Assembly: GCF_949628215.1 (NCBI RefSeq)
Contig: NC_134279.1
Span: 50,456,266 to 50,520,265, forward strand
Source of the DNA: Phalacrocorax aristotelis
Lineage: Eukaryota > Chordata > Aves > Suliformes > Phalacrocoracidae
Direction of reading: 5' to 3'
DNA length: 64,000 nucleotides
Shown: positions 10,301 to 64,000 of the stretch, in pieces
Numbering within the stretch: the first letter of the stretch is position 1
How the letters are laid out: each line of letters begins with the position of its first letter
Program-made: the position numbers and the translations under genes
Notes under the pieces: model-generated
What the model was told of the DNA's origin: nothing
The model's input: the letters and a program-made list of their open reading frames with translations, nothing else
Database searches by the model: none

Positions 10301-13300
10301 CATATTTTGACAGGAGCTATTTCCCGAAGGTCCAAATCTGTGCGTCCGTTGCGGTAGACTGTATACATAATGTCGCTTTTTCTGGTTGATTTTAGTATTG
10401 CAGGATGGAAAATTTCACAAGACAATTGCATTAATACTGTTAAGTATTTGCTTGGCTTTGCATGAAGCCTCTGACTTTTGTTGCCTAATTAGTCATCTGA
10501 TATCCTCCCCTACCCCCCCTGTTTTGAAACTTCCTCATTTTGAAAATTAAATGGCCTCTTGTGTTTGACCTTTTGTTCCAGCTATGCAAAGGCTATAACT
10601 GCACCACAGTGAAATCTAAGAAACACATAGCTGCTGGTCCTGTACCTTCATCTCACATGTAGGAAAACCAAAATTCATCTCATGCTTTCTCCTAGCTAGT
10701 GGAAACAATACAAAAAACACATGATAACGCCCAGAAACCAATCTCACTTTAAAATTTCTGTTTCCAGTTGTAACAAATTATGCCAGTGTTTGAAGTCTGT
10801 GGCATTGTGTAAGACATTGTGTTTTCTAGATTGATGCATTAAAAACAGATATTGTGACTGGCCCAAAGAGAACATGGACATCAGTTAGCTTGTTTGTCCC
10901 AGATACATAGCTGCTAGAGATCTTGTCTTGGTTTTTACTGGAGCCAGAATGCCTTAGCAGGACACACTAGTGTTTACTAGATTACTAGTAAAGTAATATA
11001 ATTAGTACAGCCAAATAAATATTGGCAGTCAAGGGCAGGGAGGGGGAAAAGTGGTGGAAGGGTCCTTACGTATTTTTGTTTCTGATCTGCCTCTCAGCCA
11101 CTTGTGCTTTCGGAGCCTTTGTATGGACTCCCAGAATACCTTTCCTTTTTCCACCTTTCCTTTTTCCACCTTTCCTTTTTCCACCTTTCCTTTTTCCACC
11201 TTTCCTTTTTCCACCTTTCCTTTTTCCACCTTTCCTTTTTCCACCTTTCCTTTTTCCACCTTTCCTTTTTCCACCTTTCCTTTTTCCACCTTTCCTTTTT
11301 CCACCTTTCCTTTTTCCACCTTTCCTTTTTCCACCTTTCCTTTTTCCACCTTTCCTTTTTCCACCTTTCCTTTTTCCACCTTTCCTTTTTCCACCTTTCC
11401 TTTTTCCACCTTTCCTTTTTCCACCTTTCCTTTTTCCTCGTGGGGCCATACTGTGCTCTTTGGCACTTACTGATGTGCTTAGATATGTTGGGGACCAAAT
11501 CTGGTCTGCTCTCAACTGGCTTGAAGCACAAGTGCGGCTAGTAGGCATTTGCTTGTATTTCGCTGAGTAAAACATGCAGTTACAATTGTGGCATGTATAT
11601 CCATATGTTTATGTATGTATATGCATGCTTTATGTAATTGATGGGAAAACACCCTTGCGTTCACTTTGAGTACACCTAAATATAGTTCTCAAACTTCCAT
11701 TTGTAACTAGACATGTTTACAATAATAAAGGTAACTAGTTTTTTGTTATATTCCTGAAATGCACCTCTCATAATATTTAGCACCAGTTCAGCAGCACTTT
11801 TCCACACTAAATAAAAAGTCATGCTGTATAGCTCATTCCTCCGTCTGAGTAATTTGCCCAAAATTAGGTGTGCTTTCTCTGCTCCCCCCTACACATTGAA
11901 GCTTAACACTAAGCATAATTGTGAAAGATGCTAAAAAATGAGATTATGACTTGAATAAATGGAACAAACGGGTCCATACTGAGATTTAAGGTTTCCAAAC
12001 TTGCCAAAGAATATTCTTTTACAGGGTCTTCATTGAATCACACTGACCAAAAATCGGTTTGTCTATTTATCATAAACTTATGCTTGCCTTGGACTACATT
12101 AGGCAAGTTGTCTGAAGGTCTGTCAGACGGCATGGGGAAGTTGCTCTTTGTCCCCTACCTCTTGTATTCTTCTCTGCGCTCTTTCCAAAGTCCCAAGGGT
12201 TTCTCTTCCTTTATTATCAAATCATCATGAACTGATTTAGCTGACAAGTCCTAAAGGTTTAATTCAAAACTCAGTCTGCTGAATAATAAAGTGTTTTAAC
12301 AAAGAAACTAAATAGTAATGTTTCACTGTCTTTACAGTATGGAGAAGAGTGCAGAAGTAAAACATACCCTCCTTCAGGACCAACGTAAGTAATCTGATCC
12401 AATTTTTCTAACAAATTAAAGAAAGGTAGTGATTTGCAAGTCTGAACAGGGTTTTTTTGTAACTCGTTCCTGTTGCAGATCTAGAAAATGGGAAAAGGTG
12501 GGAAGCACCTATTTTGTCAGATGTTTTTTCAAAGCCTTCTTTAAATTTCAATTCCGGCACTTATCTTTCAGGTTCAAAGGGAATGTGCCCACGTATATCA
12601 TAAATCTTGATTTACCTCCCAGCAAAAGATGGGATGACTTGATGCATGACAAGAAGACAGAGGTATGAAATGCAGAGCTTGCTTTGAAACTTAGCTGGTA
12701 TAAAACTAGCATGTGGCCTTTTATTTTGAAGAAAGGTTCAGAAAGGAATACCTGTGCTAGAATTCTCTGAAAGGGATAGTATTTCTGGTTAACTTTTTTA
12801 ATATGATTCTAGACTAAAATAATTGCCTGAGTAAACCTTTTTTCTGTACAGTACTTGAGCTAGTGGCATCAAGTATAGGGACACTGGTGTTTGGGATGTA
12901 GAGGAATAAAACCTGGTGTGGCTTAAAAGCAGCTTTCATTTATCAAAGCTCTTTCGTCATGAAGTAATACAGAGTGGAGGGGGAGGAGTACGCCAAAGGG
13001 ACAGCCTCAGTAAACTGAAGTGAAACTGAGGCAGCATCCCTTCTCTGTACATCCCTGCTTCTCTCAAAACAGTGCATGAGGTGATGAAATGGTGAGGGGG
13101 AAATAAGGAACTTCTTGCCCATTTCAGGGATGCTGGTTGTGGCACTGGTGCTTACACGGCAGAAACAACTTTTAAAATGCTCAAGCCTGTTTCAAACTAC
13201 TTAGAACAATTTTTCTTCTGAAGGTTGCTGAAAATTCAGTTCAGTGCATAATTTCTCAAGAAAGCCCAGGGATTTTTGCTATTATCCCAGCTGACTTTGA

Positions 13301-59100: not shown

Positions 59101-62100
59101 AATTTTCACATGTTGGATGAAGAACATTTAAAATATTAACTTTATGGAGCAGGTATTTTCGACTATAACCAACTTCTTACTAAGTCTTGCTTTTCATACT
59201 GAAGTCAAAATATACAATTGTTCAGCAATAAACATTAAACTTCTGTCAGGATAATATGGCCTCTTTCAAGTACTGTTTAAGACCATTTCAACAGAAAGGA
59301 AAAGTCAGTATCAGCAAGTTCACAGTAAGATTTCAAGTAAATGAAGGAATGGAAATTTTTGAAATTCCTATTACTTCATACACCTGTAGTAATACTCACC
59401 TGGAGCAAAGGAATTAAAATTAGTAAATCCTGGTACATTAAGCAGGTTCACAGGTTGTGGAGGAAAGCTGAATGGACAGAAAACAGGAGATGGAGGTGGT
59501 GGCGCACTACTGCTGCTCTCCTTTCTCAACGGCTTCTCTTGACACTGTTGTTCTTCTTGCTGGCGCATCAGATCATTTAACATTTGTTTCAACCTTGAAA
59601 AAAAAGGAAAAGTAAGCACTTGGGAGGGAAAAAAGAATGCTAAGGGAAAGCTGTAAATTCATACTCAAGTAATTTGAGATTCGTATTATTTCACCTGCCT
59701 CATGTAATGTACATAAAGAACTGCTCCATTTACCTAGTAAAAAAAATAGCCACCTCAAGGAAACAAACTTCTTGTAAACATGACCACTAGTACAGAGCAG
59801 TTGATTTTAAAACCATTGCTGTCTGTCACTTGCAAGAACAACAGAAAAAATGACTACATAACAAAACAAGCAGGCTGAGAAGGAAATAAATAAAACGAAC
59901 CTAAGATAGACAATACTTGCAGAAGTGACATTAAAACTACTTTAAAATATTACGAGGCCAGTAACAAAATATCGCTTACCAAACACAAAGACAGATGAAG
60001 AGCTTGAACTTTCATGCAATGAATTAAAATTACTATTACATTTTTTTAGAAAAAAAGATCACTGTTCAGAAGGTAAAAGTAGCACATCCAAATGGATCGT
60101 AAGCGTAAGTTCTGACTGACAACATAAAGGACAAAAAACACTTCCATCATCTTTCCACAACCATTAGAATCCAGAAGCTTGCCAGGTAGTCTATCAAAGA
60201 CTACAGACATAAAAGCATATTCAAGAAAAGCAAGTCTAAACAAAAAAAGCCAAACACAGCTATCGCAACAGGTTTTCAGAAGAGATGCCAACTTTTGGTT
60301 CTCATCACTAAAGATTACCCAAAACGAGTAATCTCAAAGGCATTAAAACAGTAGTGAAAAAAATTAAAAAGCTTTATATAATTTCCTAAGCTTGTAATAA
60401 ATTCAGAAGTTCAATAGCCTCATATTTAACCATTAACTGTCATCTTTTACTCACATAATCACGTTCTCCGTTACTGAAGCATTTCAAATTCCACAGTCAA
60501 ACACTAATATAAGCCAACAAACCTTTGGACATTATTCTGCTGCCAAGCCAGTTGGGTGTAACACTGGTTCAACTGATGCATAATAAGATATACTTGTGAA
60601 GATGCAACATTATTGGGCATCATACTGTAAGGGCCTGTAAATAAAGTCTGTAGAAGACAAGACAGGGTCTGTGGAAAGAAAATACATGACAGTGATCAAA
60701 TTACCAAAACCAGAAGTTATTCCTAGAAAGATCTACCGGGGGCAGCAGGGAGGATCAAGAACAGCAAAATAACTGCTCTTCATATCTACCTGCTGATCCT
60801 GCATCAAAGTTTGACAAATGCTGACACTAAATTCATGCTGTTTCTTCAACTGGTTGATCTGCTCTTGCCACTGTTCCTTTTCTTCCACATATGAAAGTTC
60901 GGACATCCACCGAAGGTTTTCCTGACGTCGCATACTTATGTTTTGCTGTTGCCTGGCCTTAGATAATGGACGATAATTCCCATCTGCTGAAAGAGGACGG
61001 CAATTCTTCCACCTGGGGGGGGAAGGAAGAATGAGGAGAAAAGCTGACATTTCAAACAACTTTTAATTATACTCCCATTATTGAAATTATGTTTCAGTTG
61101 TACATCAACAAATCACTTGGGCACAGGCCATTTCAGCATGCCAGCTAATCACCCATGCAATTTTGTCAATCCAACATTACCCTAAACAAACACAAAATAA
61201 CAGACACCCAACTAACTACCACTGCCAAAAAGAATTGCTAAGGATGTTTCTGGATCTTGTTTTTAGTATCGTCCATCGCTGATATATAATATGTACTCAG
61301 ATGAAAATAAAAGCCACCAACATAATTCACTAAGAATTAACAGGCCCAGCTCCTGCCTGGAAGGTCACTATTTCCTAAAATTATTTTGATATCAAAACCA
61401 GAAGAAATCAGTTGAGGAGGTATACATTACTTTTAACGTGGCATTTTCATTTAGTCACACAAAGCTTGTTAAGGACATCAGTTAGGTAAGCAGAGTTAAA
61501 AATATTAATGTTAATTTAAAAAATTTAGTAAGAAATAGTTTTCAAAGCTGCAAAAGCCAACAATTAGAAAGCAAGTATTTCAGAGTTTAATTCTCTGAAT
61601 TAGATTTTTTGAAGAGACTGATCAATATGATGGCAAAAATTTCACATACATTATCTTTTAAGCTGATTAAAACAACATGGGAACATAAGGAGCTACTGCA
61701 ACACAACTGGAGAGCTCAATGGCAGACAGTCAATATGACCGAAAACCAAATAAATAATCAAATTAGTTACACATTACAGCTAGAGACTCAGACAAGAAAA
61801 CCCCACTGCACACAGCTCCCTAGCAAGCAGAAAGAAATTTCACTTTGATGTTGAAAGATGCCTTTTAGTTAATGCAATGCTTCTTCTACCCCTTCCAAAT
61901 ATACTCTGACAAGCATCAGATCAACAAGTAATGCCACTAACCTATCCTTGTTTTCTTTAACAAAACATGCATTTTCTGGTATGTTGTTATTGGGATAAAG
62001 AGAGAAACTGTCATTCAAACTTGAGGCATCTTCTTCCTCTTCCTCTGCCTGACCAACTCCGTCAGAAAGATAACCATCTTCATCTCCATCTTCTTCATCT

Positions 62101-62139
62101 AGTGCACACTGGGTAGAACCTCCCCAGGTAGCCACTGTC
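41108..62139 (-). CDS. PCM1: Pericentriolar material 1, C-terminal half (22 exons, 5' part off the window)
   Basis: PCM1 is the scaffold of centriolar satellites. Exons, 5' to 3': 62139-61942, 61012-60790, 60668-60523, 59593-59400, 58233-58056, 57405-57047, 56493-56335, 54270-54098, 54017-53889, 53291-53171, 52854-52717, 52466-52333, 51236-51102, 50561-50364, 48100-48041, 46193-46055, 45322-45174, 44237-44168, 43137-42887, 42671-42579, 42460-42337, 41133-41108. All borders are AG/GT and every phase matches, giving about 1,131 residues and a stop. The protein matches human PCM1 from ATWGGSTQCALDEE to the end, where ETFGAQSA corresponds to human ETVGAQSI. Visible parts are a coiled-coil stretch (EEKEQWQEQINQLKKQ and LKQMLNDLMRQQEEQQ), a proline-rich segment, the basic KTPKSKSKRKSSSQLKSR, and the highly conserved C-terminal region (SMFEALRDTIYSEVATLISQ, EVLFNELAFFKLMQDLDNN). 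Acidic serine-rich exons follow. The N-terminal half with the main coiled coils lies beyond 64,000. Confidence 0.97.
43388..43442 (+). repeat. A/C-rich low-complexity tract in a PCM1 intron
   Basis: Irregular AAAACAAAAACCCC-type units, complementary to the G/T-rich tracts seen elsewhere in the window. Probably simple-sequence decay. Confidence 0.6.
47111..47155 (-). mobile_element. CR1 LINE terminal fragment, antisense
   Basis: CCATAGAATCATAGAATTGT followed by TCAGGTTGGAAGATACCT is the reverse complement of the CR1 terminal ATTCTATGATTCTATG repeat region. Only about 45 bases remain recognisable. It lies in a PCM1 intron, in the same direction as the gene. Confidence 0.75.
49452..50030 (+). 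mobile_element. Solo LTR of an avian endogenous retrovirus
   Basis: About 580 bases in a PCM1 intron match a long terminal repeat I know as common in avian genomes. Landmarks are AGCTGGGACAGAGTTAAATT at the left, GAAGCTGGGAGTGGACACAG, a TATA box at 49,714-49,719 (CATATAAAG), TGGAGATGGCTGAACACCTG, TTTATCTCAACCTACAAG, and GGCTGGGGTTAAACCACAAC at the right. No gag, pol or env sequence adjoins, so it is a solo LTR left by recombination. Exact ends and target duplication are unclear. It lies antisense to PCM1. Retroviral class (ERVL- or ERVK-like) is not decided here. Confidence 0.85.
54271..61941 (-). other. PCM1: PCM1 introns, 5' part in view
   Basis: Introns 54,271-56,334, 56,494-57,046, 57,406-58,055, 58,234-59,399, 59,594-60,522, 60,669-60,789 and 61,013-61,941. 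All are AT-rich with no recognised mobile element. The acceptor of the exon ending at 61,012 has a C-run pyrimidine tract (CCCCCCCCAG on the minus strand), a small version of what precedes the next exon upstream. Confidence 0.6.
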
Positions 62140-62152
62140 CTAGTGAACGAAA
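62140..62152 (-). promoter_or_regulatory. PCM1: 3' splice site of a PCM1 exon fed by a minisatellite
   Basis: On the minus strand the intron ends TTCGTTCACTAG before GACAGTGGCTACC, and the phase (one base completing a codon) fits the human protein at K|TMATWGG. Only about a dozen bases separate the AG from the repeat array, so the array itself supplies the polypyrimidine tract. The sole adenosines near the AG are the one in the AG and one three bases before it, too close to serve as a normal branch point. Confidence 0.85.
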
Positions 62153-64000
62153 GGGGGGGGGAAGCAAAGGAGGGGGGGGGAAGCAAAGGAGGGGGGGGGG
62201 AAGCAAAGGAGGGGGGGGGGAAGCAAAGGAGGGGGGGGGGAAGCAAAGGAGGGGGGGGGGAAGCAAAGGAGGGGGGGGGGAAGCAAAGGAGGGGGGGGGG
62301 AAGCAAAGGAGGGGGGGGGGAAGCAAAGGAGGGGGGGGGAAGCAAAGGAGGGGGGGGGAAGCAAAGGAGGGGGGGGGGAAGCAAAGGAGGGGGGGGGGAA
62401 GCAAAGGAGGGGGGGGGAAGCAAAGGAGGGGGGGGGGAAGCAAAGGAGGGGGGGGGGAAGCAAAGGAGGGGGGGGGGAAGCAAAGGAGGGGGGGGGGGAA
62501 GCAAAGGAGGGGGGGGGGAAGCAAAGGAGGGGGGGGAAGCAAAGGAGGGGGGGGGAAGCAAAGGAGGGGGGGGGGGAAGCAAAGGAGGGGGGGGGGGAAG
62601 CAAAGGAGGGGGGGGGGGAAGCAAAGGAGGGGGGGGGGGAAGCAAAGGAGGGGGGGGGGGAAGCAAAGGAGGGGGGGGGGGAAGCAAAGGAGGGGGGGGG
62701 GGAAGCAAAGGAGGGGGGGAAGCAAAGGGGGGGGGGAAGCAAAGGGGGGGGGGAAGCAAAGGGGGGGGGGAAGCAAAGGGGGGGGGGAAGCAAAGGGGGG
62801 GGGGAAGCAAAGGGGGGGGGGAAGCAAAGGGGGGGGGGAAGCAAAGGGGGGGGGGAAGCAAAGGGGGGGGGAAGCAAAGGGGGGGGGGAAGCAAAGGGGG
62901 GGGGGAAGCAAAGGGGGGGGGGAAGCAAAGGGGGGGGGGAAGCAAGGGGGGGGGGGAAGCAAGGGGGGGGGGGAAGCAAGGGGGGGGGGAAGCAAGGGGG
63001 GGGGGGAAGCAAGGGGGGGGGGGAAGCAAAGGGGGGGGGGAAGCAAAGGGGGGGGGAAGCAAAGGGGGGGGGGAAGCAAAGGGGGGGGGAAGCAAAGGGG
63101 GGGGGGAAGCAAAGGGGGGGGGGAAGCAAAGGGGGGGGGGAAGCAAAGGGGGGGGGGAAGCAAAGGGGGGGGGGAAGCAAAGGGGGGGGGGAAGCAAAGG
63201 GGGGGGGGAAGCAAAGGGGGGGGGGAAGCAAAGGGGGGGGGGAAGCAAAGGGGGGGGGGAAGCAAAGGGGGGGGGGAAGCAAAGGGGGGGGGGAAGCAAA
63301 GGGGGGGGGGAAGCAAAGGGGGGGGGGAAGCAAAGGGGGGGGGGAAGCAAAGGGGGGGGGGAAGCAAGGGGGGGGGGAAGCAAAGGGGGGGGGGAAGCAA
63401 AGGGGGGGGGGAAGCAAAGGGGGGGGGGAAGCAAAGGGGGGGGGGAAGCAAAGGGGGGGGGAAGCAAAGGGGGGGGGGAAGCAAAGGGGGGGGGGAAGCA
63501 AAGGGGGGGGGGAAGCAAAGGGGGGGGGAAGCAAAGGGGGGGGGGAAGCAAAGGGGGGGGGAAGCAAAGGGGGGGGGAAGCAAAGGGGGGGGGAAGCAAA
63601 GGGGGGGGGAAGCAAAGGGGGGGGGGAAGCAAAGGGGGGGGGAAGCAAAGGGGGGGGGGAAGCAAAGGGGGGGGGGAAGCAAAGGGGGGGGGGAAGCAAA
63701 GGGGGGGGGAAGCAAAGGGGGGGGGAAGCAAAGGGGGGGGGAAGCAAAGGGGGGGGGAAGCAAAGGGGGGGGGAAGCAAAGGGGGGGGGAAGCAAAGGGG
63801 GGGGGAAGCAAAGGGGGGGGGGAAGCAAAGGGGGGGGGAAGCAAAGGGGGGGGGAAGCAAGGGGGGGGGAAGCAAAGGGGGGGGGAAGCAAAGGGGGGGG
63901 GAAGCAAAGGGGGGGGGAAGCAAAGGGGGGGGGAAGCAAAGGGGGGGGGAAGCAAAGGGGGGGGGAAGCAAAGGGGGGGGAAGCAAAGGGGGGGGAAGCA
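62151..64000 (+). repeat. G-rich minisatellite in a PCM1 intron, open at the right edge
   Basis: At least 1.85 kb, roughly 100 copies. On the + strand each unit is AAGCAAA followed by a G run. The segment to about 62,718 uses AAGCAAAGGA plus 8-12 G (18-22 bp units). From there to the edge the unit is AAGCAAA plus 8-10 G (about 16-17 bp), with a cluster of AAGCAA variants at about 62,940-63,025. G runs are mostly 10 long between 62,720 and 63,440 and mostly 8-9 near the edge. The + strand contains no T, so the PCM1 sense strand has no A and no stop codon in any frame; the long proline/leucine-rich open frames here follow from that. True length is unknown because the array continues past the window, and such arrays are often mis-sized in assemblies. 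Confidence 0.97.

Follow-up and report, generated by a model that had tools for sequence, protein, structure and literature searches.

Introduction

How far a branch point may lie from its 3′ splice site is an old question, and the natural cases gathered in one study reach about 400 nt (PMC1431707). For the distant-branch-point exons treated there, the branch point is predicted from a candidate site and a pyrimidine tract at the upstream end of a long zone devoid of AG (the AG exclusion zone), and large zones of this kind are reported to accompany cassette exons more often than average (PMC1431707). Human PKD1 intron 21 is described as containing a 2.5 kb tract that is 97% pyrimidine (PMC9483843, PMC11696556). 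Here we describe an intron of PCM1, in the European shag (Phalacrocorax aristotelis), whose last 2.1 kb is almost entirely free of adenosine. The window analysed is a 64,000-nt stretch of contig NC_134279.1 (50,456,266 to 50,520,265, forward strand), which we followed past its end in the assembly; positions are those of the window, numbered on beyond 64000 where necessary, and intron positions counted from the acceptor carry a minus sign.

Results

A PCM1 intron end without adenosine

On the + strand, T occurs for the last time at 62144; 62145–64000 (1,856 nt) lacks it altogether, and beyond the window the T-free run reaches 64264 (contig position 50520529). For PCM1, encoded on the minus strand, this means 2,120 nt of sense sequence without A, made up of 1,353 C, 641 T and 126 G. 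The run lies in an intron of 2,656 nt, as the next exon upstream (64989–64796) is followed by the donor GTAAGA at 64795, and together with the acceptor it accounts for the last 2,125 nt. The sense strand of the intron end reads ...TTTGCTTCCCCCCCCCTTTCGTTCACTAG/GACAGTGGC (the slash marks the junction). Its only As near the exon are at -2, within the AG itself, and at -5, with none between -6 and -2125, meaning that no conventional branch adenosine exists at -18 to -45. The last AG before the acceptor is at -2211, which gives an AG exclusion zone of 2,207 nt, where 100 nt or more are expected of the distant-branch-point class. The initial annotation of the window was borne out on all these points: it had named the gene PCM1, described a + strand without T from 62,145 to the window end, counted just the two As next to the acceptor, judged a conventional branch adenosine impossible and expected a single long AG exclusion zone ending at the true acceptor. 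The relevant features are:

61942–62139, minus strand: PCM1 exon of 198 nt, with equal phase at both ends, coding for TVATWGG...KENKDR (66 amino acids), according to its frame and to database models
62140–62144, minus strand: 3′ splice site, sense ACTAG/G, with the only As (-5 and -2) between -2125 and the exon
62145–62163, minus strand: terminal pyrimidine stretch, sense TTCCCCCCCCCTTTCGTTC, of presumed rather than observed origin
62164–62721, minus strand: array block 1, 28 units of 17–21 bp with an extra GGA (+ strand GCAAA GGA, 7–11 G, AA)
62722–64000, continuing to 64264, minus strand: array block 2, units of 15–17 bp (+ strand GCAAA or GCAA, 8–11 G, AA)

The window covers PCM1 on the minus strand. 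Its exons were placed first with a human sequence and then with database proteins. The joined exons encode a protein identical to the NCBI shag model, isoform X15, over 485 of 485 residues in one stretch, and another stretch occurs letter for letter in the same isoform; great cormorant PCM1 models match at 96% over the 651-residue region searched, isoform differences included. The reading frame of the exon at 61942–62139 is open into the next nine exons checked, each flanked by AG...GT. The acceptor, the exon and its GT donor are real.

The array

Nearly all of the last 2.1 kb of the intron is a C/T-rich minisatellite with 122 full units of 15–21 bp, 105 of them inside the window. Repeat analysis gave a period of 17, 123.2 copies and 96% matches, which fits the unit range of minisatellites (about 10–60 bp). 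The second-longest T-free run within the window is only 61 nt, so that a chance run is ruled out; since the repeat unit itself has no T, the whole run counts as one event.

The units are very much alike. An extra GGA is present in 28 of the 122, and most remaining variation is in the length of the G run. Seven units have AA for AAA, which could equally reflect a difference in run length or an A-to-G substitution, and a single G-to-C change, common to two neighbouring units (64058–64087), is not explicable by run length. With so few changes among the 122 units, selection against A is unsupported: the youth of the array suffices, and its recent spread explains the absence of A without any selection. 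Across 62164–64264 the mean longest G run per unit, about 10 in the units close to the exon, declines to about 8 towards the far end. At the outer edge of the array there is also a perfect 29-bp tandem duplication, with AGCAAAGGGGTGTGTGGGAATGGAGGAGT present twice (64255–64313).

Between array and acceptor, the terminal stretch contains TTTCGTTC, and the repeat contains TTTGCTTC; the two differ by a swapped GC. Judging by its letters, the terminal stretch may mark the margin of the tract that gave rise to the array. A relationship of TTTCGTTC to TTTGCTTC as a variant would fit such growth, albeit weakly given a composition of this kind.

For 561 nt of the array RNA hardly any structure is predicted (centroid unpaired, z -0.38), and an Rfam scan of the fetched stretch around it returned no family at gathering scores. 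On the template strand, the runs of 7–11 G are likely to form quadruplexes; avian cases have been described (PMC6792250). A second T-free array in PCM1 starts at 78746, in a run without T up to 79147, and consists of 28.6 perfect copies of GAAGGAGCGGGAAA, again without A on the sense strand; it precedes the next exon start found, at 76906, by about 1.8 kb. Elsewhere in the window, at 11138–11437, ACCTTTCCTTTTTCC occurs in 20 perfect copies inside a 305-nt + strand run without G.

Candidate branch sites

The exclusion zone has no parallel among the other PCM1 acceptors placed. In the ten placed by hand, the AG zones measure 16–54 nt, with 4–11 As within -18 to -45. A script placed 24 acceptors, not all of them correctly, and gave zones of no more than 78 nt; it put at least two acceptors, at 59559 and 56468, elsewhere than the hand-placed 59593 and 56493, and others with values of 1–12 are doubtful.

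Read in the sense direction from the AG at -2211, the sequence is CAACAGGTTGTTTTAATAATTTCTCATAAACTAAAAAAAAATACTCCTCCATTCCCACACACCCCTTTGCT, its final 29 bases occurring twice, followed by the array. Four candidate branch adenosines stand here, at the upstream end of the zone: TTTTAAT (-2200), TAATAAT (-2197), TTCTCAT (-2190) and AACTAAA (-2182). TTTTAAT and TTCTCAT match yUnAy in full, and the C/T tract begins directly after the candidates, which are 457–475 nt from the 5′ splice site. As a conceivable recursive splice site, the last AG above the zone reads CAACAG/GTTGTT, a weak donor.

When the array was cut to one unit on paper, As came to stand at -34, -36, -38 and -44, with the next AG upstream at -119. 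Judged by sequence, an intron end with a single repeat unit is thus an ordinary intron end. The position of these As at -34 to -44 suggests that the repeat grew between the branch point and the AG, probably within the polypyrimidine tract that separated them.

Branch sites within the array were compared with those of other introns by a U2-pairing score, a simple count of pairing to GUAGUA (G-C 3, A-U 2, G-U 1) and not a published predictor. Two further features enter the comparison:

62160–62166, minus strand: nearest copy of TGCTTCC, with the candidate C branch at -22 and further copies placing it at -41 and -61; identified by motif, with a chance rate of 7–17%
59594–59643, minus strand: comparison PCM1 intron end, whose best-scoring A candidate, TGCTTAC at -20, is the A-branch version of TGCTTCC

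The TGCTTCC heptamer scores 11 of 14, the same as the best A site among the ten other PCM1 introns scored. When units of the same composition were shuffled, an equally good heptamer with a C branch arose in 7.3–7.5% of cases, and one with any branch nucleotide in about 10%; permutation of the homopolymer blocks gave one in 1 of 8 and in 12 of 72 arrangements. In other PCM1 sequence, an equally good heptamer was found in 2.4% of 22-nt stretches. At a chance rate of 7–17%, the motif is no more than suggestive.

The exon in related species

The exon measures 198 nt with equal phase at both ends, meaning that its skipping preserves the frame. In a search with the exon-removed protein, the top 28 rows among the best 120 of 3,653 matches were all exon-skipping models, 24 of them recognized by a strict junction pattern and four by eye; within the same best 120, these models span 20 other sauropsid species, namely birds, crocodiles and turtles. 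By junction pattern, 324 fetched proteins were divided into 24 skipped, 289 including and 11 other, four of the last being the skips recognized by eye. The spread of skipped models over 20 other species indicates that skipping is an old option. The exon is, at least in annotation, a cassette exon of sauropsids. At the same time it has been kept: its residues are identical in the great cormorant (66/66) and nearly so in the gannet (65/66). In some birds (condors, gamebirds and the black swan) the junction reads TENR/T instead of TEK/T, which suggests an alternative donor or a tandem acceptor. A search of the shag's own genome for a spliced retrocopy, with 445 bases of exon and flank, matched only the locus itself.

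Coding consequences of retention

Without A there can be no stop codon, AG, AUG or AAUAAA, so that translation of a retained array would meet no stop in any of the three frames; indeed, each sense frame of the 2,120-nt stretch has zero stop codons. In 62147–64000 each of the six reading frames stays open across the array as far as the window extends, since A is missing from one strand and T from the other. If the array were retained, it would be translated in frame with PCM1, and gene finders could be misled by it.

Discussion

How the exon may be spliced

Our preferred explanation, which we hold tentatively and with somewhat less than even confidence, is that the exon is spliced, at least partly, from a distant branch adenosine lying beyond a minisatellite that grew in the polypyrimidine tract. 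Expansion inside the tract would have moved the branch A and the acceptor AG more than 2.1 kb apart. The U2 small nuclear ribonucleoprotein (U2 snRNP) would engage an adenosine bordering the array on its upstream side, the best candidates being those at -2182 to -2200; the array would act as a giant pyrimidine tract, and the second step would take the first downstream AG. Since an array devoid of A can offer no AG, that first AG is the true acceptor. The sequence itself shows the limits of the intron, the lack of A and AG, the candidate As at the edge and an intact, conserved exon; what we infer is that the array grew between the branch point and the AG, that the distant A is used, that the exon is included in RNA and that it is partly skipped. 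The distant adenosine is ranked ahead of the alternatives because the whole layout fits it and because it calls for an unusual distance but for no unusual chemistry.

A number of points weigh against this explanation. Spacings mapped in the study cited above are 100–400 nt (PMC1431707), and the more than 2.1 kb needed here exceeds the longest of them about fivefold; in fission yeast, moreover, splicing weakens as the spacing grows (PMC9508853). RNA folding that would bring the distant branch point closer is unsupported in the 561 nt tested. The U2-pairing scores of the edge candidates are 8–9 of 14, as against 11 for the repeated C heptamer. A-rich sequence gives branch candidates by chance, perhaps also at this edge. 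Exon definition would favour U2 near the exon, and NCBI models that include the exon can rest partly on homology.

A different solution would be a branch nucleotide other than A, namely a C (or U) of the array at an ordinary distance. The repeated TGCTTCC pairs with U2 snRNA as TGCTTAC does, but with C where the branch nucleotide would stand. Recruitment of U2 snRNP could then be helped by poly(C)-binding proteins on the C tracts, and the intron would leave as a lariat poorly removed by the debranching enzyme. C is a poor branch nucleotide, and the heptamer arises by chance at the rates given above. Still, C accounts for 4.25% of the branch points in a human collection and for 84% in one set of stable lariats from the cytoplasm (PMC9636908), and stable rat introns with a C branch are known, 12 of 14 rat introns with mapped branches in one study having C (PMC6879206). 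Binding of poly(C)-binding proteins to C-rich tracts is also reported to raise cassette-exon inclusion, an effect linked to U2 snRNP (PMC4797308), but the exact published binding consensus has zero matches in the 2,656-nt intron, despite 121 runs of at least 7 C. We hold a C branch to be the second most likely reading, at clearly less than even odds. Somewhat less likely again is that shag transcripts mostly lack the exon, the array having weakened the acceptor so that an in-frame cassette exon is now rarely used. The preserved frame and the many exon-lacking models speak for this. Such skipping would not be peculiar to the array, as annotations of numerous other birds and reptiles show it too. 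Against predominant skipping, all four shag and great cormorant models listed, one of which stands for a 35-member cluster, contain the exon with the exact junction, and the residues unchanged in the great cormorant point the same way.

Runs of 7–11 G are hard to sequence, and the initial annotation had raised the objection of an assembly error; the array might be misplaced or have lost A-containing sequence. Avian introns with G-rich tandem repeats have indeed been missed by short reads (PMC6792250). However, the shag assembly, bGulAri2.1, is reported at 42-fold HiFi coverage and a quality value (QV) of 61.7 (PMC12605584). Both edges of the array join unique sequence, the neighbouring exons are in place, the fetched stretch across the array contains no N, and errors in homopolymer length cannot hide an A. 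The objection is accordingly weak, and an error of this sort seems very improbable. The three outcomes foreseen in the same annotation (a distant branch point, a non-A branch nucleotide, or skipping or retention) were all aptly named, and the sequence past the window, with its candidate As at the edge of the array, favours the distant branch point. We rank the distant A before the C branch and the C branch before predominant skipping; a mixture is quite possible. It is somewhat more likely than not that one of two things holds: either the array itself is the branch-site region, with more than 100 modules of C heptamer and pyrimidine tract and a debranching-resistant lariat, or the acceptor is served by one A at a distance of more than 2.1 kb. 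Under either option, splicing of the exon would use no branch adenosine within the final 2.1 kb of the intron.

Irrespective of which holds, the shag intron forces a choice between a distance of more than 2.1 kb, a non-A branch nucleotide and loss of the exon. It thereby offers a natural test case for signal spacing or for splicing without a nearby adenosine, and it suggests how the growth of a minisatellite may give an ordinary intron end a distant branch point.

Comparison with known systems

The initial annotation knew of no described intron of this kind, which goes too far: distant-branch-point exons with AG exclusion zones and very long polypyrimidine tracts (megaPPTs) have been described, if at far shorter distances (PMC1431707, PMC7969005). 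Among the literature titles and abstracts listed we found no description of an intron without adenosine near its acceptor, which is not proof of absence. The kind of exon is therefore already known, and what is new is the distance, the lack of A over 2.1 kb and the likely minisatellite origin.

Closest are human PTB exon 11 and GABBR1 exon 23, with which the shag exon shares a long AG-free zone ending at the true acceptor, candidate As followed by a pyrimidine tract at the edge of that zone, and no A site near the exon (PMC1431707). The shag exon is alternative in models of relatives, while the four cormorant models listed include it. The zone is nevertheless 2,207 nt in the shag and 149–438 nt in the cases given there (with a figure axis extending to about 1,000); it is a tandem repeat with 2,120 nt free of A, and its branch point is as yet a candidate (PMC1431707). 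OGDH exon 4b, with its distant branch points (dBP) above a megaPPT, resembles the arrangement predicted for the shag, where the tract is instead C-rich and apparently young and the cassette exon a single one (PMC7969005). PKD1 intron 21 likewise has a kilobase-long C-rich sense tract and a G-rich template, but the accounts cited discuss it for DNA instability and do not report it as A-free (PMC9483843, PMC11696556).

The introns with C branch points have a counterpart in the C heptamer available at an ordinary distance in the shag; they were found by lariat reads, whereas the shag candidate is known by its motif (PMC6879206, PMC9636908). A C-rich tract upstream of a cassette exon is likewise what characterizes the exons regulated by poly(C)-binding proteins, a likeness that in the shag comes from sequence, with a far longer tract and without the exact consensus (PMC4797308). 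Finally, short G-rich tandem repeats are known to fill avian introns, in GC-rich genes missing from assemblies; the shag array, in contrast, directly abuts an acceptor and removes every A from the intron end (PMC6792250).
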